A DNA stretch of 64,000 bases, taken from Halobellus rarus (GTDB lineage: Archaea > Halobacteriota > Halobacteria > Halobacteriales > Haloferacaceae). Of this stretch, positions 15,836 to 26,936 are shown in pieces. Position 1 is the first letter of the stretch; every line of letters begins with the position of its first letter. A program made the position numbers and the translations under genes. Under the pieces are notes generated by a model, which saw nothing but the letters and a program-made list of their open reading frames with translations, was not told the origin of the DNA and ran no database searches. The stretch lies in NCBI RefSeq assembly GCF_024494595.1, contig NZ_JANHDI010000006.1:186001-250000 (forward strand), in the 5' to 3' direction.

Positions 15836-16951
15836 ATGTACGACGGACAGACGATCGGCGTCGTCGTCCCGGCGCACAACGAGGCGGACCTCGTCGGCGA
15901 CGTGATCGAGACGATGCCCGCCTACGTCGATCGGATCTACGCCATCGACGATGCATCGACCGACAGTACCTGGGACGAAATGCGGGAGTCCGCCCGGCGT
16001 GTCAACGGTGGGACCTGGGAGGAGGACGTCTTCAACGTGGACAGCGATCACTCGTCGCGCGTCGTCACGGTCCAGCACGAGCGTAACCGGGGAGCGGGCG
16101 CCGCTGTGAAGACTGGATACGCGTGCGCGCTCGAGGACGGGATCGACGTGGTCGCAGTGATGGACGGCGACGGACAGATGGACCCGGCGCAGCTCGATCG
16201 GATACTAGAACCCGTCACCAGCGGCGAGGTAACCTACTCGAAAGGGAATCGGCTCGCCTCCCGGGAGGATTATGAATCGATGTCGAACTGGCGGCTGTTC
16301 GGAAACGTCTCGCTCACGCTGTTGACGCGGGTCGCCAGCGGCTACTGGGAGCTCTCCGACCCGCAGAACGGGTTCACGGCGATCTCGAACGAAGGGCTTC
16401 GGTCTATCGGGTTCGAGCGCCTCTACGACGAGTACGGCTTCTTGAATCACGTCCTCTTCGCGCTCAACATCAACCGAGAGCCGATCGCCGACGTCTCACA
16501 CCCGGCCGTCTACGCGGACGAGATGAGCGGCATCAACTACTGGACGTTCATCCCCAGCGTCTCTCTACTCCTGGGCCGGAACTTCCTCGAACGGCTCGTT
16601 CGTTCGTACGTCGTCCGCCGGTTCCACCCGCTCGTCGTCTGTTACGTGATCGGAACCCTCGCGACGGTTACCGGAGTCGCTGGCGGAGTGTACGCGCTCT
16701 CTTCACCGGTCGTGAACACGTTCCTCGGCGGAATGGTGTCAGTCACCGCCGGAACGCTCGGCACGCTGCTGCTCGTGCTGGGACTGTGGTTCGACGTCTC
16801 CGAGAACGAGGGACTCGTCCGAAAGGTCGAACACTCGAGACGGAGGGTCCCGGATACGGAGGCCGACGAGGTTCCGGAGGTGCCGTCCGGGTTCGAGGTG
16901 TACCAGGACGGCGGGACGACTGCCACGTCGGCGGAGGGTGATCCAGAATGA
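15836..16951 (+). CDS. GT2-family glycosyltransferase with C-terminal membrane helices
   Basis: The 371-residue product has the GT-A fold of polyprenyl-phosphate sugar synthases and related GT2 enzymes. IGVVVPAHNEADLVGDVI opens the fold, YAIDDASTDSTW lies near residue 35, RNRGAGAAVKTGYACAL near 84, and the metal-binding DGD is at 110-112 in VAVMDGDGQMDP. Two or three hydrophobic helices follow from about residue 260 (PLVVCYVIGTLATVTGVAGG and VNTFLGGMVSVTAGTLGTLL), so it is membrane-anchored. It overlaps wecB by ATGA at 16948-16951 and so opens a three-gene operon. Such enzymes either charge dolichyl phosphate or add a sugar to a lipid-linked glycan. Given the neighbours, a role in adding a ManNAcA-type sugar is inferred, not shown. 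Confidence 0.85.
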   Translation: MYDGQTIGVVVPAHNEADLVGDVIETMPAYVDRIYAIDDASTDSTWDEMRESARRVNGGTWEEDVFNVDSDHSSRVVTVQHERNRGAGAAVKTGYACALEDGIDVVAVMDGDGQMDPAQLDRILEPVTSGEVTYSKGNRLASREDYESMSNWRLFGNVSLTLLTRVASGYWELSDPQNGFTAISNEGLRSIGFERLYDEYGFLNHVLFALNINREPIADVSHPAVYADEMSGINYWTFIPSVSLLLGRNFLERLVRSYVVRRFHPLVVCYVIGTLATVTGVAGGVYALSSPVVNTFLGGMVSVTAGTLGTLLLVLGLWFDVSENEGLVRKVEHSRRRVPDTEADEVPEVPSGFEVYQDGGTTATSAEGDPE

Positions 16952-18051
16952 CCGACGTCGCGTTCGTCCTGGGGACGAGACCCGAGATCATCAAGCTCGC
17001 GCCGGTCGTCCAGGCCTGTCAGCGCTTCGAGGTCGACTACACGATCATCCACACCGGACAGCATTACTCCGACAGTCTCGATTCGGTCTTCTTCGACCAA
17101 CTCGAACTGCCGGAGCCCGACTACAACCTCGGTGTCGGATCCTCGTCTCACGGCGAACAGACCGGTGAGATGCTGATCGGCATCGAGCGGGCGCTCACCG
17201 AGACTGCACCCGACGTCGTCTTGGTACAGGGCGACACCAACAGCGTGCTCGCCGGCGCGATCGCCGCGAGCAAGATGGACGCGGAGCTTGGCCACGTCGA
17301 GGCCGGCCTGCGGAGTTTCGATCGATCGATGCCTGAGGAGACCAACAGAGTGGTCTCAGACCACGTGTCTGAGTACCTCTTCGCGCCGACCGAACAGAGC
17401 AAAACGTACCTCCTCGACGAGGGGCTCTCCGAGCACCGGATCACAGTCACGGGAAACACGGTGGTCGACGCGCTCTTGCGGAACCGAGAGATCGCACGAC
17501 AGAAGAGCAACGTTATCGCGGATCTCGGCCTCGAAGGCACCGAATTCTTCGTGATGACGGCACACCGACAGGAGAACGTCGACGACGAAGCACGGTTCAG
17601 GGAGCTTCTCGCAGGCGTCGAACGGGCGGCGGAGGCACACGACGCCGAGGTGATCTATCCGGTACACCCCCGCGCCCGTGACCGTCTCGAGGCCTTCGGC
17701 CTCGACGTCCCCGATCGGATTCGGACGATCGAGCCACTGGAGTACCTCGATTTCCTGCGGCTCTCGTCGATGGCGGACCTGATCCTGACCGATTCCGGCG
17801 GCGTCCAAGAGGAGGCGTGCATCCTCGGCGTCCCGTGCGTGACGATGCGGGACAACACCGAACGACCGGAGACTATCGACGTCGGCGCGAACCGACTCAG
17901 TTCGTGCGATCCCGGACAGATCGTCGCGAGCGCGACGGAGATGCTGCTGAAAGGCAACGACTGGGAGAACCCCTTCGGTGACGGCGACGCCGCCGAACGG
18001 ATCCTTCGGGCGCTACCGCTCGAAATCAAGTCCCGGGAGGTCGCACAGTGA
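16948..18051 (+). CDS. wecB: UDP-N-acetylglucosamine 2-epimerase (non-hydrolysing)
   Basis: The 367-residue protein starts VAFVLGTRPEIIKLAPVVQA and continues with DYTIIHTGQHYSDSLDSVFF, VLVQGDTNSVLAGAIAA, GHVEAGLRSFDRSMPEETNR, FFVMTAHRQENVDD, IYPVHPRARDR and LILTDSGGVQEEACILGVPC. These are the full set of WecB/MnaA signature blocks, including the catalytic Asp and Glu regions and the UDP-binding HRxEN and SGGxQEE loops. The enzyme converts UDP-GlcNAc to UDP-ManNAc in the cytosol. It overlaps the GT2 gene by four bases upstream, and the next gene starts with GTG inside its stop region, so all three should be cotranslated. The downstream dehydrogenase is the expected next step. Length and motifs are normal. 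Confidence 0.94.
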   Translation: MTDVAFVLGTRPEIIKLAPVVQACQRFEVDYTIIHTGQHYSDSLDSVFFDQLELPEPDYNLGVGSSSHGEQTGEMLIGIERALTETAPDVVLVQGDTNSVLAGAIAASKMDAELGHVEAGLRSFDRSMPEETNRVVSDHVSEYLFAPTEQSKTYLLDEGLSEHRITVTGNTVVDALLRNREIARQKSNVIADLGLEGTEFFVMTAHRQENVDDEARFRELLAGVERAAEAHDAEVIYPVHPRARDRLEAFGLDVPDRIRTIEPLEYLDFLRLSSMADLILTDSGGVQEEACILGVPCVTMRDNTERPETIDVGANRLSSCDPGQIVASATEMLLKGNDWENPFGDGDAAERILRALPLEIKSREVAQ

Positions 18052-19337
18052 GTTCGGTCTGCGTCCACGGACTGGGCTATATCGGGTTGCCGACGGCTGC
18101 GATGCTGGCCACACACGACCACGACGTGTACGGATACGATACGGACGGGGTCCTCACGGCCGCACTTCGAGAAGGCGACGTCAAACTCGACGAACCGGGA
18201 TTAGAAGCGCTCGTCGTTCGAGCGCTCGAGTCGGGGCGATTGCGGGCCGTCGACGACGTCGCGGCCGCGGAGTATCACGTGATTTGCGTCCCGACGCCGT
18301 TCGACGAGGAACGGCGCGAGGCCGATCTGGATTACGTCGCCGACGCCGCGCAGGCGGTCGGGTCCGTCCTTCGCGAGGGCGACACTGTGATCCTCGAATC
18401 GACCGTTCCGCCCGAGACGACCGAGGAACACCTTCGTCCGCTCCTCGAGGAGTCCGGGTTGGTCGCCGGTCGCGACTTCGGACTCGCATACTGTCCCGAG
18501 ACCGTCCTCCCGGGGAACATCATCGCCGAACTCCGTGAGAACGACCGGATCATCGGCGGCGTCGACGACCGGTCCGCGACCGCGGCGGTCCGGCTCTACG
18601 AGTCGTTCGTGGAGGGCGAGATACGGACGGCAGCGGACCCGACGACCGCGGAGTTCGTGAAGCTGATCCAGAACACCGCTCGCGACGTCGAGATCGCGCT
18701 GGCGAACGAGATCGCTCGGATCGCACACGACTACGGGATCGATTCGCGGGAGGCGATCGCGATGGCCAACGCGCACCCGCGGGTCGAGATCCTCCAGCCG
18801 GGGCCAGGCGTGGGCGGCCACTGCCTCCCGATCGACCCGTGGTTCCTCGGCGTCGGCTCCGACTCGCTCGATCTCGTCCCGACCGCACGGGCGGTGAACG
18901 ACGGAATGATCGGATTCGTCGTCGAACTCCTCGAGGAACTGCTCTCCGACCTCGACGGGAAGCGCATCGCCGTGTTCGGCGTCGCCTACAAGGGGAACGT
19001 CGACGACACAAGGATGAGCCCGGGCCTCGAGCTGGTCCGGGAGTTACAGCACGAACAGAAGCCGTCGACGCCCGCGACCGACGGCGGTGCCCCCGATACG
19101 CCGGGGGTCGCGATCCACGATCCCCACGTCGTGGATTCGACGTTGCGACTCCTGGATGCCGAAGACGCCGTGGCGGGCGCTCACGCCGTCGTGATCACAG
19201 CCGACCACGACGAGTTCACCGAACTCGATCCCGGTCGGTTGCGAGGGCTGATGGCGGAGCCGAACGTCGTCGATACGAAAGGGATGCTCGATGTCGATCG
19301 GTGGCGAAACGCGGGATTCGACGTGCGGCGAGTGTGA
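18048..19337 (+). CDS. wecC: UDP-N-acetyl-D-mannosamine dehydrogenase (nucleotide sugar dehydrogenase)
   Basis: The 429-residue protein is a UDP-sugar 6-dehydrogenase. The NAD-binding start is VCVHGLGYIGLPTAAMLA, followed by VICVPTPFDEE, ILESTVPPETTEE, AYCPETVLPGNII and NDRIIGGVD. The catalytic cysteine is in GVGGHCLPIDPWF near residue 259, and AVFGVAYKGNVDDTRMSPGL starts the C-terminal domain. The PET and GHC-IDP forms favour the WecC (ManNAc) branch over UDP-glucose dehydrogenase. The start is GTG at 18048, overlapping the wecB stop (GTGA). Together with wecB it should give UDP-ManNAcA for the surface glycan. Substrate specificity rests on context and motif style and has not been tested. 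Confidence 0.9.
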   Translation: MSSVCVHGLGYIGLPTAAMLATHDHDVYGYDTDGVLTAALREGDVKLDEPGLEALVVRALESGRLRAVDDVAAAEYHVICVPTPFDEERREADLDYVADAAQAVGSVLREGDTVILESTVPPETTEEHLRPLLEESGLVAGRDFGLAYCPETVLPGNIIAELRENDRIIGGVDDRSATAAVRLYESFVEGEIRTAADPTTAEFVKLIQNTARDVEIALANEIARIAHDYGIDSREAIAMANAHPRVEILQPGPGVGGHCLPIDPWFLGVGSDSLDLVPTARAVNDGMIGFVVELLEELLSDLDGKRIAVFGVAYKGNVDDTRMSPGLELVRELQHEQKPSTPATDGGAPDTPGVAIHDPHVVDSTLRLLDAEDAVAGAHAVVITADHDEFTELDPGRLRGLMAEPNVVDTKGMLDVDRWRNAGFDVRRV

Positions 19338-19427: not shown

Positions 19428-19673
19428 TTAGTTCGGAGCAGTCGCCCGGACGGTCTCTTCGCCGGTCACCGTGACGAAACACCCGGCCATCCGAAAGGAG
19501 ACGGACAGGTCGATCGATTCCGACTCGCACGCCTGATCGACGAGCCGTGCCAGAGACTCGACGTCGATCACGTCGTAGAGACGGTCCTCGATCTGTTCGG
19601 GCTCGACGCCGCGTTCGTCGGCGACCGTCGAAACGATGTGCCAGCAGAGGTCGTCGGCCAAGTCCGGTGTCAT
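19428..19673 (-). CDS. HalOD1-domain small protein
   Basis: The 81-residue product is a single HalOD1 domain: DDLCWHIVSTVADERGVEPE, RLYDVIDVESLARLVD and DLSVSFRMAGCFVTVTGEE. These small haloarchaeal output domains occur alone or fused to response-regulator receivers, and their activity is unknown. The open frame extends to a TTG at 19739, but the ATG at 19673 is preferred because GGAG lies four bases before it. Two more HalOD1 genes occur at 47489 and 50507. Confidence 0.78.
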   Translation of the reverse strand: MTPDLADDLCWHIVSTVADERGVEPEQIEDRLYDVIDVESLARLVDQACESESIDLSVSFRMAGCFVTVTGEETVRATAPN

Positions 19674-19994
19674 GATGCTCCATCTATACACTACGGATAC
19701 GGGGGCATCGACCTTGTTTCGATGCGTATCGTATGTCAACTGTTCGGGTACTACGTGTGTAGTATGGGTGCCGGAAACGTCTCACAGTGGGACGGTCGCC
19801 CCGGCACCAATGCCAGGTCCCATCGTCGATCGTGGGTTCCCGACCACCTCCCACACTCGACGTGAGAACCATTCGACGTTAGTACCGAAACTGGCGTGCC
19901 GCAGGAACCGGCAGCTCGCACGTTCGAACGTGCCCCGACGAAGAGTCTCGGTAGCCCCGGGTGCCGAAATCCCGAACGGACTCGTCCGGGCGTC
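19674..19994. other. Intergenic region, promoter of HalOD1 gene
   Basis: No gene is evident in these 321 bases. On the minus strand a GTGTATAGATGGAG element immediately before the HalOD1 start may combine a TATA-like box and a ribosome site. The rest looks unstructured. Confidence 0.4.
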
Positions 19995-22529
19995 TCACTC
20001 GACGCCCGCAGGGGAGTCGAACAGCGCGGCAAAGAGTTTCCGTTCGGCCGTCCGCAGGTGCCGGTTGAACGTCGGCTGCGTGATCCCCATTGCCGCCGCC
20101 ACGTCCTCGCCGGTACTCGTGCGTGGCCACTCGAAGTACCCGCCGAGATAGGCCGTTCGGGCCGCCTCCCGCTGCCGGTCGGTGAGCGCTTCGGTAACCA
20201 TCGAACCGGAGACGTCGTCGCCGGCGGCTTCGCGGTCACCGCGCGCCAGGAGTTCGACCGACTCGTACCGGTCGGCCAGGCTCTCGATGACGGTTCGCAC
20301 GTCGACGGCGGGTGACAGCGTGATCGTCGCGTCGAACCCGTCGGAGTCCGCGATCAGGCGGTCGACGCTGCCCCCGTGCGCGGTCACCCTGTCGATGACG
20401 GTCGTCGCCGCGATCGACACCTCGATCCGACTGTCCGAGTCGCCGTCGAGCGATCGAACCGACTCGACTGCGTGGACGGTCTCCGAAAGCGCCGTCGGGT
20501 CAGCCTCGGTGGTGAAGTACACCAGCGCTCGATCGTCAGTCTGTCTCACCGTTCCGTCGACGTGGAGGGGTTCGCCGACCGTGGACGCGATCCGCGAGAG
20601 GATCGCATTCGACCCGTCGATCCGTACCCGGAGTTCGACGACGGACTCGCTCTGTAGCGACCGCCTGGTCTCGACGCTGCTGATCGCGTCGGCGACGGTG
20701 TCACCGAGTTCTGCGAGCAACTCGCGGAGTTCTCCCTCGAACGCCCCCCGTTCGTCGGCGTACACCGAGAGGACGCCGTACTTCAGATCGTCGTGCGAGA
20801 GCGGGACACTGAGGACCGAACCGAACCCGCGAGCCAGTGCTCGCTCGCGCCACGGGGACGCGCGGAGGCCGTCGGAAACGTCCGGAACGTAGATCGGGGA
20901 CCCGGAACCGAGCGCTCTGTGGCTCGGTTCTCCGTCGGATTGGCCGGCGGGGACGTTTCCGGAACCCTCCGCGGCCGGTAGTCCGTCGAGGTAGCCCTCG
21001 CCGTCTCCCGCCGAAGCGACCGGTCGCAGGGCTCCGCCCGTTCGATACGTCTCTCCGATCCAGGCGAACGCGACGGACTCGGCCTCGAGGAGCGGATCGC
21101 AGACCGCGGTCGCGATCCCTTCGAGCGTATCGGCCTCGACGAGCGCCCCGTTGATGCGGCGGAGGAGGTCGTGGTACCCGTGGAGCCGTTGTAGCTGCCG
21201 GGTCCGTTCGCTGAGCGTCTCGCGGTGCTGGGACAGTTCCGCCTCTCGGTCCACCCGATCGAGCGCCGCGACCGCGTTCGCCGCCAGTAACTCCGCGGAC
21301 TCCGCGACGTTGCCGGCGACCTCCTCGTCGGGTAACTCGATTCGTAGCAGTCCGTACTCGCCGAGCGTCGCATAGAGCGTTCGTGTTCCGGTCGACTCCG
21401 TCCCGTCGGAGCGTTCGACCACGTGTCCGGTCGGGGTCGTCCCCGCTTCGGGATCTTCGGGTTCTTCGAGTGACGACGGCGAACTGATACGGTGAAAGGT
21501 CGGGGACTGATCGGCCGGCCCGCCCGTCGCTGAGTCGGCCGGTTCACCCGTCTGATCGGGGGGTTCAGTCAGACCGTCCCCGGTCGAAAACGCCTTCCAG
21601 ACCGCACTCCCGGGCGGGCACACCTCGGGATCCGTTATCGACGCTGCGACGGGTTCGAGCACCGACGCCGAGCGGTCGAGCGAGTAGGCGACGACCGTCG
21701 CGCTGGGCCACACCGACGTGGCGACGTCGACGGTCGTCTGATAGACCGCCCGTTCGTCCTCCGTGCCCAACAGCAGACGTGCGGATCTGTTGAGTTCTCT
21801 GAGCGCGTGTTCGTTCTGCTTGCGGTCGGTCACGTCCCTGATTACACCGACGCGCTGTTGGCGTCCAGTCGCGAACTCGACCGACGAGAAGTGCGTCTCG
21901 ATCGGAAGCGAGTCCCCGTCCGCAGTCCGGATCGAGGACTCGATCATCCCGACGTCGGAGTCGTCACCACGGAGTTGCTCGATGATCTCGCCGGCCATCG
22001 AGAGCGTCTCCTCGCCGGCCAGCATCGACGCGTGTGACCCGACGAGCTCGTCGCGATCGTACCCCGTCATCGACGTGACCGCCTCGTTGACGGACGTGAT
22101 GACGAACGCCTCGTCGAGCGTGTACACGCCGTCTTCGAGCGTTTCGAGGACACGATTCGACCGCTGGAGCCGCCGACGCATCGCGACGCGGTCGCTGGCG
22201 TCTCGAACGAGAAGAGCCACGCCTCCACTCGTCGGAACAGCCCGAACCTCGACTGTCGCTCCCTCGGGAAGCATCGTTTCGCTCTCGACGATACGTCCCC
22301 TTCGGGCGACTTCCTCGACGGTCTCGGCCAGTTCGGGTCCGACGATCGGATCGACCGCTTTCAGGTCAGTTCCGACGGGGTCACCGTCGATATCGAGCAG
22401 GCGGACGCCGGACTCGTTTGCTGCAGTGACCGTCGAGGACTCGTCGATCAACAGAAATCCCGTGACCGCTCGGTCGAGAAACGACCCCACACTCATCGAA
22501 CGCCCCGTCCCGTCGTCATCGCCACTCAT
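19995..22529 (-). CDS. PAS-PAS-GAF-GAF-BAT type transcriptional regulator with HTH_10
   Basis: The 844-residue protein has sensor modules and no kinase or receiver domain. A PAS domain lies at about 1-110 (GFLLIDESSTVTAANESGVR), a second PAS with PAC at about 115-235 (GVYTLDEAFVITSVNEAVTS ending VGVIRDVTDRKQNEH), a GAF-like region at about 240-420, and a second GAF at about 445-610 (GFGSVLSVPLSHDDLKYGVL). A bacterio-opsin activator (BAT) type domain follows at about 615-770, and a C-terminal HTH_10 at about 785-835 (LTDRQREAARTAYLGGYFEW and DVAAAMGITQPTFNRHLRTA). It should bind DNA in response to redox, light or small molecules. A TATA-like TTTATAAATATC lies about 50 bases upstream on its strand. 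It is divergent from the terpene-synthase-like gene across a shared 283-base region. Confidence 0.9.
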   Translation of the reverse strand: MSGDDDGTGRSMSVGSFLDRAVTGFLLIDESSTVTAANESGVRLLDIDGDPVGTDLKAVDPIVGPELAETVEEVARRGRIVESETMLPEGATVEVRAVPTSGGVALLVRDASDRVAMRRRLQRSNRVLETLEDGVYTLDEAFVITSVNEAVTSMTGYDRDELVGSHASMLAGEETLSMAGEIIEQLRGDDSDVGMIESSIRTADGDSLPIETHFSSVEFATGRQQRVGVIRDVTDRKQNEHALRELNRSARLLLGTEDERAVYQTTVDVATSVWPSATVVAYSLDRSASVLEPVAASITDPEVCPPGSAVWKAFSTGDGLTEPPDQTGEPADSATGGPADQSPTFHRISSPSSLEEPEDPEAGTTPTGHVVERSDGTESTGTRTLYATLGEYGLLRIELPDEEVAGNVAESAELLAANAVAALDRVDREAELSQHRETLSERTRQLQRLHGYHDLLRRINGALVEADTLEGIATAVCDPLLEAESVAFAWIGETYRTGGALRPVASAGDGEGYLDGLPAAEGSGNVPAGQSDGEPSHRALGSGSPIYVPDVSDGLRASPWRERALARGFGSVLSVPLSHDDLKYGVLSVYADERGAFEGELRELLAELGDTVADAISSVETRRSLQSESVVELRVRIDGSNAILSRIASTVGEPLHVDGTVRQTDDRALVYFTTEADPTALSETVHAVESVRSLDGDSDSRIEVSIAATTVIDRVTAHGGSVDRLIADSDGFDATITLSPAVDVRTVIESLADRYESVELLARGDREAAGDDVSGSMVTEALTDRQREAARTAYLGGYFEWPRTSTGEDVAAAMGITQPTFNRHLRTAERKLFAALFDSPAGVE

Positions 22530-22812
22530 TGCGGATCTCCGGTCCGTTGTCGTGACACGTCGTTCAGTACCGGCCGATATTTATAAATTTTCCGTCATAT
22601 TCACGCCTCATTATACGTTTTGGTGACAGATACTGGGGAAACGGGACCGTGGAGACCAATTCGGATCGACCCCATAACTCAGCGACTCGGATGTTCCGAT
22701 AATGATACAAAAGTTACCAGAAAACCAATGACAGTCACGAATTCGTACTTTTTTGCCTATGATTAAAGTATGAACAAAAGGCTTAACTGGGTTATTGTGA
22801 TACTAACTCGGT
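22530..22812. promoter_or_regulatory. Shared promoter region of BAT-type regulator and terpene-synthase-like gene
   Basis: This AT-rich stretch separates divergent genes. For the minus-strand regulator a TATA-like TTTATAAATATC lies at about 22576-22587. For the plus-strand gene, AT-rich blocks occur around 22738-22768 and before the ATG. BAT-type regulators in haloarchaea control isoprenoid and retinal genes, so regulation of the neighbour from this region is a reasonable inference. Confidence 0.5.
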
Positions 22813-23823
22813 ATGGCACACGAGGCTCGCGGCCAGGTCGCTGCAATCCGTGGCGGAGCGGACGTGAACCGGGGAGAGTACATGCGCACGGTCCAGAACG
22901 TCGAACTCCCATCGAGCGTTCGTGAGTTCGCGAACCGGTACGACCGGATCATCGGCGATCGGGACCGCTTCCTCTGGAAATGGATCCATAACCTCTTCGA
23001 GGAGTTCACGCTCTCATCGGTCCAAAGCGATCTTCTGACGGACGTCTACGAGCATAAGACGCTGTTAACGATCTTCGTGACGGTCTTGGACGACCTCGCG
23101 GAACGAGGCGGTGACCGGGCTACCTTCGAGATCGGACGTCGCGTTCCCTTCGGCGTCGAGGAGGCGTCCGCCGGGATGGACCGTTCCGGCGTCGATCTAT
23201 CGGTTCTGGAATTGCTCGCCGACCTCTGGGGCGAGATCGACCGTGGTCTCCGGGAGGCACCACGACACACGGCCTTCTCGGACGTGTTCGAGTACGACCT
23301 CCGACAGACGTTCGACGCGATGGCGTACTCGGGGCTGCTGAACGACAACCCGATGATCGCGAACCGGACCGAAGCGGAGCGACACGACGCCTACAATATG
23401 GCGATGTTTCCGTACGCGGGAATCGATCTGATGCACTCGCCGTCGTTCGACCCGGGCGAGTACGGTGCGCTCCGGAGTCTTATCTGCGATCTGCAGCAGA
23501 TGGCGCGAATCGGCAACTGGATCACGACCTGGGAACGCGAACTCGCGGAGGGGGACCTCAGTTCGGGTGTGGTCGTCTGTGCGCTCCGGCGGGGCGTGAT
23601 CACTCCGGAGGAAGTATCCGGGGCGGACGAGTCGACGGTCGGCGGGCTGGTCGACCGAATCAAATCACGCGGCATCGAGTCGGAGTTCGTTCGTGAATGG
23701 GAGATCCGCAACAAGACGGTTCGCAAACGGACCTCCGAGGTCGAGAGTATCGACGCCGACGCGTTCGTCGACGGGATCCAGGCGGTGATGAATCACCACC
23801 TGGCGAGTGAAGGGTACAAATGA
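22813..23823 (+). CDS. Probable class I terpene synthase (terpenoid cyclase fold)
   Basis: The 336-residue, mostly helical protein has no obvious annotation, but it carries the two metal-binding motifs of class I terpene synthases at the right distance. The aspartate-rich motif DDLAE is at 93-97, directly after a hydrophobic helix (LLTIFVTVLDDLAERGG), and an NSE-type motif N235-x3-T239-x3-E243 lies in ARIGNWITTWERELAEGD, followed by LSSGVV. The 142-residue gap and the total length match bacterial sesquiterpene cyclases such as pentalenene synthase. R190, about 45 residues before N235, fits the pyrophosphate-sensing arginine. The usual C-terminal RY pair is not seen, and Trp replaces Asp at the second NSE position. 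It could also be an inactive relative or another helical prenyl-diphosphate enzyme. An alternative start is the ATG at 22882. Confidence 0.65.
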   Translation: MAHEARGQVAAIRGGADVNRGEYMRTVQNVELPSSVREFANRYDRIIGDRDRFLWKWIHNLFEEFTLSSVQSDLLTDVYEHKTLLTIFVTVLDDLAERGGDRATFEIGRRVPFGVEEASAGMDRSGVDLSVLELLADLWGEIDRGLREAPRHTAFSDVFEYDLRQTFDAMAYSGLLNDNPMIANRTEAERHDAYNMAMFPYAGIDLMHSPSFDPGEYGALRSLICDLQQMARIGNWITTWERELAEGDLSSGVVVCALRRGVITPEEVSGADESTVGGLVDRIKSRGIESEFVREWEIRNKTVRKRTSEVESIDADAFVDGIQAVMNHHLASEGYK

Positions 23824-24017: not shown

Positions 24018-24245
24018 CTACCGGTAACCGAGCGACGCCAGTCGGTCCTCGACGTCCGGAGAGACCTCCCTGTCGGAATCGCGGTCGTCCCGAGTATCTA
24101 CCTCCCGATCATCGCTCGCGATCACGGTCTCCATCACGAACTCAACGTACTGTTCGACACTCTCGAACTCGGTTCCCTCGATGCGCACTTCGCACTGTTC
24201 GACGATCTCCCCTCGGAGTCGGATCTCGGTGTCTTCTGCAGTCAT
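24018..24245 (-). CDS. Small acidic protein of sulfatase operons
   Basis: The 75-residue protein begins TEIRLRGEIVEQCEVRIEGT, runs through FESVEQYVEFVMETVIAS and ends in an acidic linker and VEDRLASLGYR. Short proteins with this beta-then-helix start and the terminal DRL-SLGY tail are commonly encoded beside sulfatase/phosphatase genes in haloarchaea; their function is not known. Its ATG overlaps the toroid gene stop by four bases (24242-24245), so the operon order is sulfatase, toroid, this protein. A role as an adaptor or small regulator is a guess. Confidence 0.65.
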   Translation of the reverse strand: MTAEDTEIRLRGEIVEQCEVRIEGTEFESVEQYVEFVMETVIASDDREVDTRDDRDSDREVSPDVEDRLASLGYR

Positions 24246-25402
24246 CGTTGTGATTTACGTTTGGTAATAACCGCACGCGACTGGTCGGTATCACAGTCGT
24301 GTCGGTTTGCGGTGAGGATCGCATCCACCAGGAACTTCGGCGCCCAGTTGGGGTACCGAAGTCGCATATACGGCCCCCATACCGGTTTTGAGCCGGCGAG
24401 CCCGCCCCGGATCGGCGCAGCCCCGTCGAGGGGCTGGGCGAGTTTCAGCTCCTGGATCGCCTGGCGCGCCGCGTCCGCGTAGTCGGCCTCACCGGTCAGC
24501 TCGGCCAGTCGTATCCAGATGATTGCCGTCTGTGCGACCCCGGTGAGACAGCTGAAGTCAACTCCGTTCCACCCGTCGTCGTAGGCACCCGCCAGTGCTC
24601 CGTTGCGTCGTTGATCTGCTATGAGCCGGTCCGCAGCCCGCTGTCCCGCTTCGACAATGGCCCGATTCCCCAGATAGTGACCGCCCTCGACGAGTCCACG
24701 GATGGTGTAGGCGATCGTGTGCAGGAACGCGTCGTCGTCCGGAGTGAAGGCCCAGTGTCTGAACGTGTCGTTCTCCTGCTGGATCCGCTGGACCCACTCG
24801 AGATTACGGACCGCCGCATCCCGGACTCTGTCCTCGCCGGTCACATCGTAGGCGACGAGGAGTGCCCATCCGACTCTGGCCGTGTACGCGTGGACCATAC
24901 TCTCGTACGTGTGAGAGGACCAGTACCCTTCCGGTTCCTGAACGTCGGCCAGCCACCCGCTGGCGTCACGGAGCGCGGTCGCGAACGCGTTGTCACCGGT
25001 TTCGGCGTGCGCTCTCGCCAGTCCGAACAGGATCTGGCCGGTGTTGAAAACGCTCGGCTCGGGAGTCCCACCGACGGTACCGCCCGGGAACGCGCCACTG
25101 TCTAACTGGACGTCGAGGAGCCACCGCGCCATCCGTTCGGCACGGTGTCGTGCCTCGGAATCGTCGGCGTGGGTCGCGTAGTCGTACAGCGTCGGGACGA
25201 TGTAGCCGGTCGTTTCGGGGTATGCGCGTTCCCACCCGAGAACGAGGTTGTACGTCGCCGAACAGCCGTCTGACTCCGCCACGTCCTGTGACCGAAAGAG
25301 CCACTCGATGGCCGATCGCAGGTGAACGTCGTCCGCACGCGGCGTCGTCTCCGTGTGCGTCAGGTCGCGACGAAGTGCCTCGGCCAGCACCCTGGCTCTC
25401 AT
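24242..25402 (-). CDS. Alpha/alpha-toroid protein of polysaccharide clusters (prenyltransferase/glycosidase-like fold)
   Basis: The 386-residue protein is a ring of helical hairpins with repeated small-residue turns: AERMARWLLDVQLDSGAFPG, DASGWLADVQEPEGYWSSH, AVRNLEWVQRIQQENDTF and LAELTGEADYADAARQAIQE. Conserved pieces include YPETTGYIVPTLYDYA, FNTGQILFGLARA, HTIAYTIRGLVEGG and CLTGVAQTAIIWIRL. Such proteins are found in bacterial and archaeal polysaccharide loci and are usually labelled prenyltransferase- or squalene-cyclase-like, or wrongly as aminolevulinate dehydratase; a glycoside-hydrolase or epimerase activity is more likely but unproven. The ORF extends to 25672 inside the sulfatase gene; the ATG at 25402 has GGAGG ten bases upstream and is preferred. 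It overlaps the small protein gene downstream. Confidence 0.75.
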   Translation of the reverse strand: MRARVLAEALRRDLTHTETTPRADDVHLRSAIEWLFRSQDVAESDGCSATYNLVLGWERAYPETTGYIVPTLYDYATHADDSEARHRAERMARWLLDVQLDSGAFPGGTVGGTPEPSVFNTGQILFGLARAHAETGDNAFATALRDASGWLADVQEPEGYWSSHTYESMVHAYTARVGWALLVAYDVTGEDRVRDAAVRNLEWVQRIQQENDTFRHWAFTPDDDAFLHTIAYTIRGLVEGGHYLGNRAIVEAGQRAADRLIADQRRNGALAGAYDDGWNGVDFSCLTGVAQTAIIWIRLAELTGEADYADAARQAIQELKLAQPLDGAAPIRGGLAGSKPVWGPYMRLRYPNWAPKFLVDAILTANRHDCDTDQSRAVITKRKSQR

Positions 25403-25523
25403 ACGACCGATCCCTCCGGTATCCTCGCCTCGAGGGTGGCTTCGGTTTGGGACTCGTCGCTCGATTCTCTCGCGATCGCGTCCCAGGTACATCCGACAGG
25501 CCCGAATCGCCGTTTCACGCGCA

Positions 25524-26936
25524 TTATATCGCTCCCTCCCGGTGGAGCATCGCCACCCTATCGCGGATCCGGTACTTCTCTGCGACGGTTCGCTGGCACT
25601 GTCTGGTCTCCACACGGTGATTTTCGATCTTCGACTGTAACTCGTCTGTGATCGTCGACCGCTGGGCCACACGGTTCCGCTGTTCTTTCGGGTCCCGTTC
25701 CAGGTTATACAGTTCCTGCTCGTCCGTCCCCTCCCTATCGACGAGTTTCCAAGGCCAATCGAGGCAGGCGGTCAGCATCTCGCCGTTCCCTGCGTCCCTG
25801 GTCGCCGGGCTGAATCCGTATATGACGTTCGTGAACGTGGGATCGCCCTCCGCTTCAAATAGGGACGTCCCCTCGAAGTCGTCCGGGATTGCGTCCTCGC
25901 GTTCCGGGGCGGCATAGTTGAGCAGCGTCGGAGGCAGATCGAGGAGCGAAACCGGTTCGGTCATCGTCGTCGATGGGACACCGGGCCCCCGCAGCAGGAG
26001 TGGGACCCGAACCACTTCGTCGTACAGTGACCGCGGTGCGTGACTGAAGTTCCCGTGGTCGGCCAGTTCGGTTCCGTGGTCGCCCGCGACGACGACGACT
26101 GTCTCTGAGAGGCCGAGTGTGTCGTCGACGACCGTCAACAGATCCTCGATAGCGTCGTCGGTCCGGCGCAGTTCGGCGTCGTAGAGTGCGTTGATGGCCT
26201 CGAGGTCGCTGTCGGGGATCGACTGTTCGGCCGCCCCCCCGTGCCGCCCTGCGACTGTATGCCAGAGTCGGCCAATGTCGAGACGAGACAGGGGCTCGTC
26301 GTGAAACCGCTCCAGCAGCGCTGCGGGTGGAACCCACGGGTAGTGGGGATCCATATAATGGATCCACAGGAACGTCGGTCGGTCGGTGTCGACCTCGTCA
26401 ATGAGCCACTCGGTCGCGGCCGCGGTCACCCGCTCCGCCGGTTCGAGCGGCACCTGCCCGGTGAGTGCACACCCCGTCCGGGCAACGCGTCCGGCCCAGT
26501 CCCTGACGAGATCGTGATCGGGGACAAACCGCTGCAGTTCCCGGAGTCGTTCAGCGATACCGTACCCATCCTGGTCGTCGGTCAGGAAATCGCGAAACGT
26601 CTCGAAACCCCGGTCGTACCCGTCCGCGTCCGTGAGCCAAGGGTTGCCCGAATTGAATCCAGCAGTCCGGTAGCCCAGCTTCTGGAACGCTTCCGCCAGT
26701 GCGGGCACCTCTCTCGGCAGGCCGAGGTCCGACGTGTGACTGAGCGGATAGACTCCTCCTAGCAGCGACTTGAACGAAAAGTAGGTCGGGATTCCACTGG
26801 CCATCGCCCGCGTCCAGACGGTCCCGTCGGCAGCGAGCCCGTCCAGTGTTGGGGTTGTCGGCTTATCGTACCCCAGATAGCCCATCCGGTCGGCCCGGAT
26901 CGAGTCGACAGTGATGTAGAGAACGTGTTGTCGCAT
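25524..26936 (-). CDS. Sulfatase / alkaline-phosphatase-superfamily hydrolase
   Basis: The 470-residue protein has the sulfatase fold: LYITVDSIRADRMGYLGYDK with the metal-binding Asp11, PTLDGLAADGTVWTRAMASG, WIHYMDPHYPWVPP near residue 195, and VVVVAGDHGTELADHGNFSH with the C-terminal metal ligands. There is no signal peptide, so it is probably cytosolic, as is common for sulfatase-like proteins in archaeal polysaccharide loci. The segment where most sulfatases have C/S-x-P-x-R reads SGIPTYFSFKSLLGG (47-61), with Gly at the nucleophile position and Tyr in place of Arg. It may therefore use a Ser/Thr nucleophile, act as a phosphohydrolase or transferase, or lack activity. It heads an operon with the toroid and small protein genes. 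Confidence 0.85.
   Translation of the reverse strand: MRQHVLYITVDSIRADRMGYLGYDKPTTPTLDGLAADGTVWTRAMASGIPTYFSFKSLLGGVYPLSHTSDLGLPREVPALAEAFQKLGYRTAGFNSGNPWLTDADGYDRGFETFRDFLTDDQDGYGIAERLRELQRFVPDHDLVRDWAGRVARTGCALTGQVPLEPAERVTAAATEWLIDEVDTDRPTFLWIHYMDPHYPWVPPAALLERFHDEPLSRLDIGRLWHTVAGRHGGAAEQSIPDSDLEAINALYDAELRRTDDAIEDLLTVVDDTLGLSETVVVVAGDHGTELADHGNFSHAPRSLYDEVVRVPLLLRGPGVPSTTMTEPVSLLDLPPTLLNYAAPEREDAIPDDFEGTSLFEAEGDPTFTNVIYGFSPATRDAGNGEMLTACLDWPWKLVDREGTDEQELYNLERDPKEQRNRVAQRSTITDELQSKIENHRVETRQCQRTVAEKYRIRDRVAMLHREGAI

Follow-up and report, generated by a model that had tools for sequence, protein, structure and literature searches.

A predicted class I terpenoid synthase family associated with sensory transduction genes in haloarchaea, methanogens and small-genome bacteria

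Organization of the locus

The stretch of DNA analyzed here (the window, 64,000 nucleotides from Halobellus rarus) encodes a 336-residue protein whose existing annotation is only "hypothetical protein", together with a divergent Bat-type regulator and a small partner of the latter. The relevant features, in window coordinates, are the following:

22813..23823, + strand: terpene-synthase-like gene, 336 aa (fold model, Pfam, motif conservation)
23089-23103, + strand, within the synthase-like gene: putative D93-D94-x-x-E97 metal motif
23515-23541, + strand, within the synthase-like gene: putative N235-x3-T239-x3-E243 metal motif
22530..22812, no strand: divergent Bat/synthase intergenic region, 283 bp (alignment)
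19995..22529, - strand: Bat-type regulator, 844 aa, PAS-GAF-BAT-HTH_10 (Pfam), divergent from the synthase gene
19428..19739, - strand: small HalOD1 (halobacterial output domain 1) protein, downstream of Bat (Pfam PF18545, 3.2e-16)

The open reading frame is real, with the length and coordinates given in the initial annotation, and the elements that the latter had singled out (D93-D94-L-A-E97, N235-x3-T239-x3-E243 at a distance of 142 residues, and R190 about 45 residues before N235) are all present in the sequence. A plasmid-borne homologue in Halobellus limi, 84% identical to the window protein, is likewise annotated as "hypothetical protein", and a second paralogue, with 39% identity, is found elsewhere in the window genome (contig C21:288162-289139); its Halobellus relatives (L099, L102-L104) adjoin not sensor genes, but a predicted secretion/pilus-type ATPase gene, recognized by eye.

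The probable true start of the HalOD1 protein is Met23 of its reading frame, at about 19673. The intergenic region contains blocks conserved among aligned Halobellus/Halorubrum loci that probably correspond to a promoter and regulator sites, and exact matching within it of the Bat upstream element returned no hits. Across its 3.66 Mb, the window genome has 23 matches to HTH_10 and 14 to HalOD1, so the occurrence by chance of one of each beside the synthase gene is unlikely.

The synthase/Bat module lies inside a cluster of the surface-glycan type (15836-19337 and 24242-26936) encoding a glycosyltransferase, a UDP-GlcNAc 2-epimerase, a nucleotide-sugar dehydrogenase, a GH127-like alpha/alpha barrel and a sulfatase, and this cluster is conserved on the Halobellus limi plasmid. 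The gene at 24242-25672, labeled as a "prenyltransferase/squalene oxidase repeat", was considered as a class II cyclase partner and rejected: its best Pfam match is the GH127-like barrel, it lies within the glycan cluster and it does not stand out as a recurrent neighbor of the synthase. No tailoring genes marking a terpenoid pathway were found in the 64-kb window.

Fold and homology to terpene synthases

The AlphaFold2 model of the window protein (pLDDT 90.8, pTM 0.90) is entirely helical, and the bundle is interrupted between helices 185-196 and 198-207, which we take to be the site of the broken helix G of class I synthases. A bacterial homologue with about 30% identity was also modeled with high confidence (pLDDT 95.7, pTM 0.92), and the best Foldseek matches in the PDB for both models are all terpene or isoprenoid synthases. 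Those of the window model comprise PcIDS1, hydropyrene synthase, cubebol synthase, tolypothrichol synthase, aristolochene synthase and FPP synthases (TM-scores of roughly 0.5-0.6, rmsd 5-10 Å), and those of the bacterial model include abietadiene, isoprene and sesterterpene synthases and Sat1646. Structure prediction, which the initial annotation had put forward as a check on its class I terpene synthase reading, therefore returns the expected fold in two distant family members, and the models support a class I terpenoid-synthase fold for the window protein.

The other proposed check, a profile search against the terpene synthase C-terminal family, gave different results for the window protein and for a relative. 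The window protein matches Pfam PF19086 (Terpene_syn_C_2) weakly (E=0.01, 16 bits, for a curated cut-off of 23.7 bits), but the Haloarcula homologue L047, the best in the family, scores above the cut-off (2.4e-8, 34.4 bits), and 41 of 52 members match the profile at E<=1; one member also shows a weak SQS_PSY match (E=0.029). Profile-profile alignment (hhalign) of the family against 13 canonical terpene synthases places DDLAE opposite DDLFD and NWITTWERE opposite NDIASLEKE, bringing both metal motifs into register, with E=0.0022 in a single comparison and a probability of only 13%; with a wider alignment the E-value rises to 0.1. An NCBIfam search with the window protein identified no family. 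Searched by sequence, the PDB yielded no matches to the window protein or to the family alignment, and with the wider alignment it yielded only Sat1646, at E=1.5 and in register over RxxN..E. By these measures, the similarity of the window protein to known synthases is marginal at the sequence level.

Conservation of the metal-binding motifs

Conservation was assessed on a diverse set of 30 homologues from haloarchaea, Methanosarcina-type genomes, Methanohalobium and bacteria, and on a closer set of 52 family members. In the diverse set D93 is aspartate in 29 sequences and D94 in all 30, position 97 is acidic in every sequence, and N235, T239 and E243 are each kept throughout (30/30); D94, R232, N235, T239 and E243 are invariant among the 52 closer members. 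Free variation of DDLAE and of the N/T/E triad had been named beforehand as an outcome that would refute a synthase, and retention of the metal ligands in 29-30 of 30 homologues does not bear it out. R232 and R221 are not universal across the diverse set.

Two features had been listed in the initial annotation as reasons for caution. Tryptophan does occupy the second NSE position of the window protein (W236), but this position varies in the family (W/A/T in the diverse set). The C-terminal RY pair is indeed absent, and in its place the family carries a conserved H-x-x-S-x-G-x-K terminus (H329 in 47, S332 in 44, G334 in 48 and K336 in 46 of the 52 members). R190, noted there without a stated role, does align with the pyrophosphate-sensor Arg173 of pentalenene synthase in the profile-profile comparison, but this position, some 46 residues before the NSE motif, is not conserved, with Arg in only 20 of the 52 members, and is thus a weaker point than the initial annotation implied. 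The original reading as a class I terpene synthase or cyclase is thus supported for the fold and the likely chemistry by the models, the Foldseek matches and the motifs in register, and is weakened by the lack of conservation of the sensor arginine and the RY pair.

Distribution of the family

Homologues were detected in 25 of 60 relatives of the window genome and, in a class-level haloarchaeal set of 341 genomes with at least 90% completeness, in 103 genomes (~30%) and 36 of 81 genera, a prevalence that rules out a lone oddity. The family extends to Methanohalobium and, more distantly, to Methanosarcina-type genomes, which together account for 14 of the 238 genomes in that class, to a MAG that is the only carrier among 19 genomes from a small archaeal phylum, and to bacteria with genomes mostly of 0.5-1.1 Mb (5 of 380 in one phylum), which are probably members of the CPR (Patescibacteria). 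The initial description of a synthase "in a haloarchaeon" is correct for the carrier, but undersells this spread. We found no published account of the family, in a literature search that was incomplete for most subscription journals and for preprints.

Association with sensory genes

Comparison of 80 synthase loci revealed that almost all members of the window protein's clade have a large Bat gene beside the synthase, in divergent, Bat-HalOD1-synthase co-directional and synthase-Bat arrangements. The best match in the window genome of the linked Haloarcula Bat is the window Bat, and by sequence comparison the synthase-linked Bats are orthologues. Distances among Bats and among synthases are strongly correlated over 32 loci (mirror-tree r=0.967, 0 of 1000 permutations), a value that includes a contribution from shared species history. 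Sensor-gene density reaches 6.3 per 10 kb in the 500 bp nearest the synthase and drops to roughly 0.18 per 10 kb at distances of 4-9 kb. This difference of about 35-fold should be taken as indicative, since the profiles derive from the linked families themselves and the loci share ancestry. In haloarchaeal sister clades the synthase is adjoined by PAS or 4TM histidine kinases, or by REC-PAS kinases. Several clades, among them Natrinema/Natrialba and that of the second Halobellus paralogue, lack a detected sensor neighbor, and sensor coupling by neighborhood is therefore not universal.

Similar associations are observed outside the haloarchaea. The Methanohalobium synthase gene is flanked on both sides by PAS kinases, and at five measured Methanosarcina-type loci a PAS-containing kinase (HisKA_2 where scanned) lies 37-251 bp upstream of the synthase, with a PAS-related ORF also upstream at two further loci. 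One Methanosarcina-type synthase-like gene, L230 (G925:C57:2794-3552), contains an in-frame TAG that may be a pyrrolysine codon or indicate a broken gene. In the archaeal MAG (L156), the neighbor is a gene for a FIST-domain protein, which shares 4 nt with the start of the synthase gene. Seven small-genome bacterial loci (L098, L108, L109, L153, L203, L204 and L205) have a histidine kinase, usually with a recognizable 7TM domain, starting at most about 30 bp from the synthase stop or overlapping it (the L108 kinase is in pieces in its assembly), and L206 has a 7TM-GAF kinase ahead of the synthase and GAF-like ORFs, recognized by eye, after it.

Several bacterial clusters also contain putative substrate-supply genes. 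The clusters L108, L153, L203 and L205 each encode a polyprenyl synthetase, and in L204 one lies some 2 kb from the synthase; in L153 and L205 it is joined by an IDI-like NUDIX protein upstream of the synthase, and in L204 a UbiA-like protein, just below the cut-off, precedes the synthase. The presence of prenyl-diphosphate synthase and IPP-isomerase-type NUDIX genes fits a prenyl-diphosphate substrate, as supportive evidence only, catalysis itself being inferred. SAM methyltransferases adjoin the synthase in three lineages (L108:195-1028, L228:4093-4902 and L152:10039-10710), and a C-methylated prenyl diphosphate is a conceivable substrate.

Receiver-synthase fusions

The window protein itself has no receiver domain, but at least two haloarchaeal proteins fuse REC-HalX to the synthase. 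L077 (the same locus as L162) encodes Response_reg (8.3e-17), HalX (8.1e-7) and Terpene_syn_C_2 (2.3e-4) domains in a single ORF of at least 505 aa, with no N in the sequence. L074, from a different clade, is a second REC-HalX-synthase fusion according to the REC and family profiles, and L073 is a fragment at a contig end that starts inside an apparent REC domain. On inspection by eye, the phosphoacceptor Asp, the Thr and the Lys of the receiver and the synthase motifs are intact in the fusions. A census of two-component systems in archaea published in 2018 lists KaiC-like, BcsA, thioredoxin reductase and PPDK enzymatic outputs of REC proteins, and the words "terpene" and "isoprenoid" are absent from it (PMC5847659).

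Discussion

The recurrence of sensor neighbors, the co-evolution of Bat and synthase and the receiver fusions make functional coupling of the synthase with sensory transduction well supported. Our favored interpretation, which we hold to be probable though far from settled, is that the window protein belongs to a previously unrecognized family of catalytically competent class I terpenoid synthases and serves as effector within a sensory module of its own. The fold, the invariance of the motifs, the gene linkage and the fusions are established by computation; that the protein is catalytic, what it acts on and makes, and which way control runs are inferences. Under this interpretation, DDLAE and N235/T239/E243 would bind Mg2+, and a prenyl diphosphate (GGPP, FPP or GFPP) would be ionized to yield a cyclic or linear terpenoid. 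The divergent Bat and its HalOD1 partner would sense a cue, perhaps redox or light, and switch the synthase gene, a role that in relatives may fall to the adjacent histidine kinase or the fused REC-HalX.

The direction of control may also be reversed, with the synthase producing a membrane-permeable terpenoid that serves as ligand, either autoinducer or cofactor, of the neighboring sensor (7TM kinase, Bat PAS/GAF or FIST), a scheme for which CqsA/CqsS, a synthase/receptor-kinase pair, offers an analogue. It would account for a constant synthase next to sensors that differ by lineage, for synthase and 7TM kinase genes that overlap or nearly abut in small-genome bacteria and for prenyl-diphosphate supply genes in the same clusters, and a hydrophobic ligand would suit membrane sensor domains. 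Yet no exporter or second species-specific component was seen, there is no evidence for a ligand, and the REC fusions point to control of the enzyme, not detection of its product. This possibility remains open as the lesser one, and we prefer control of the enzyme by the sensor on the basis of the fusions and of the divergent regulator.

Recurrent sensor pairing and REC fusion would also be expected of a pseudoenzyme that binds prenyl diphosphates or Mg-pyrophosphate without turnover and reports isoprenoid supply to the sensor, and the absence of a conserved sensor Arg and of the RY pair is compatible with it; pseudoenzymes, however, usually lose their metal-liganding positions, all of which are retained here over archaea-bacteria distances, making this reading improbable. 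Even less credence can be given to a chain-elongating prenyl-diphosphate synthase or a squalene/phytoene-type condensing enzyme, instead of a cyclase or lyase: FPP synthases and PcIDS1 do appear among the Foldseek matches and one member has the weak SQS_PSY match, but the second metal motif is of the NSE type (N-x3-T-x3-E) instead of a second DDxxD, the Pfam matches are to terpene synthases and a separate PF00348 synthase is encoded in the same clusters.

With the family read as a sensor-controlled terpenoid synthase, the results extend the class I terpene synthases by a sizeable branch that had gone unannotated; to our knowledge, archaea are not usually credited with terpenoid cyclases. The results also tie terpenoid synthesis to two-component and Bat-type signaling, including receiver-synthase fusions absent from the 2018 census. 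The recurrent sensor pairing is the more surprising part, was missed in the initial annotation, and makes the finding more interesting through its link to signaling. Our analysis suggests that terpenoid production in the carriers either is controlled by dedicated sensors or serves to provide a signal. A broader and tentative extension, which we regard as possible at best, is a terpenoid-based sensory or cell-cell signaling system, ancient or widely transferred, in haloarchaea, methanogens and small-genome bacteria, in which the synthase would make a lipid-like signal or cofactor for a cognate sensor (7TM kinase, Bat or FIST) and some lineages would set its activity by phosphorylation of the fused receiver. 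Two questions can now be put to a direct test, namely the identity of the terpenoids produced by haloarchaea and by small-genome bacteria and the possible role of any of these compounds in signaling.

Comparison with known systems

Two canonical-type terpene synthases related to pentalenene synthase were observed in Actinarchaeum halophilum (L140:7494-8885) and Halocatena marina (L141:5467-6906), with tblastn E-values against pentalenene synthase of 4e-20 and 6e-16, respectively. Both are plasmid-borne, adjoin polyprenyl synthetase genes and are annotated as "hypothetical protein" or "SRPBCC family protein". Like the new family they are of the class I terpene synthase type and occur in Halobacteria, but plasmid-borne members of the new family are not among the pentalenene synthase tblastn matches.

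Bat, the bacterio-opsin activator, regulates bop/crtB1 in Halobacterium. The window Bat shares its PAS-GAF-BAT-HTH_10 architecture and lies next to a putative isoprenoid-related target, but differs in that the divergent region has no exact match to the Bat upstream element, in having an additional HalOD1 partner and in that its presumed target is a class I synthase-like gene instead of phytoene synthase or opsin. The fusions, in turn, follow the REC(-HalX)-enzyme design of response regulators with enzymatic outputs, for which the census mentions no terpene or isoprenoid output (PMC5847659).

The bacterial class I synthases (PF19086; pentalenene synthase, hydropyrene synthase, Sat1646) share with the new family the predicted all-helical fold, the length, the broken helix before the NSE helix, the DDxx(D/E) helix and an N-x3-(S/T)-x3-E helix some 140 residues later. 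The new family departs from them in carrying W (or A/T) instead of D at the second NSE position, in not conserving the sensor Arg and the RY pair, in its C-terminal H..S.G.K and conserved D248 and in being often paired with or fused to signaling proteins.
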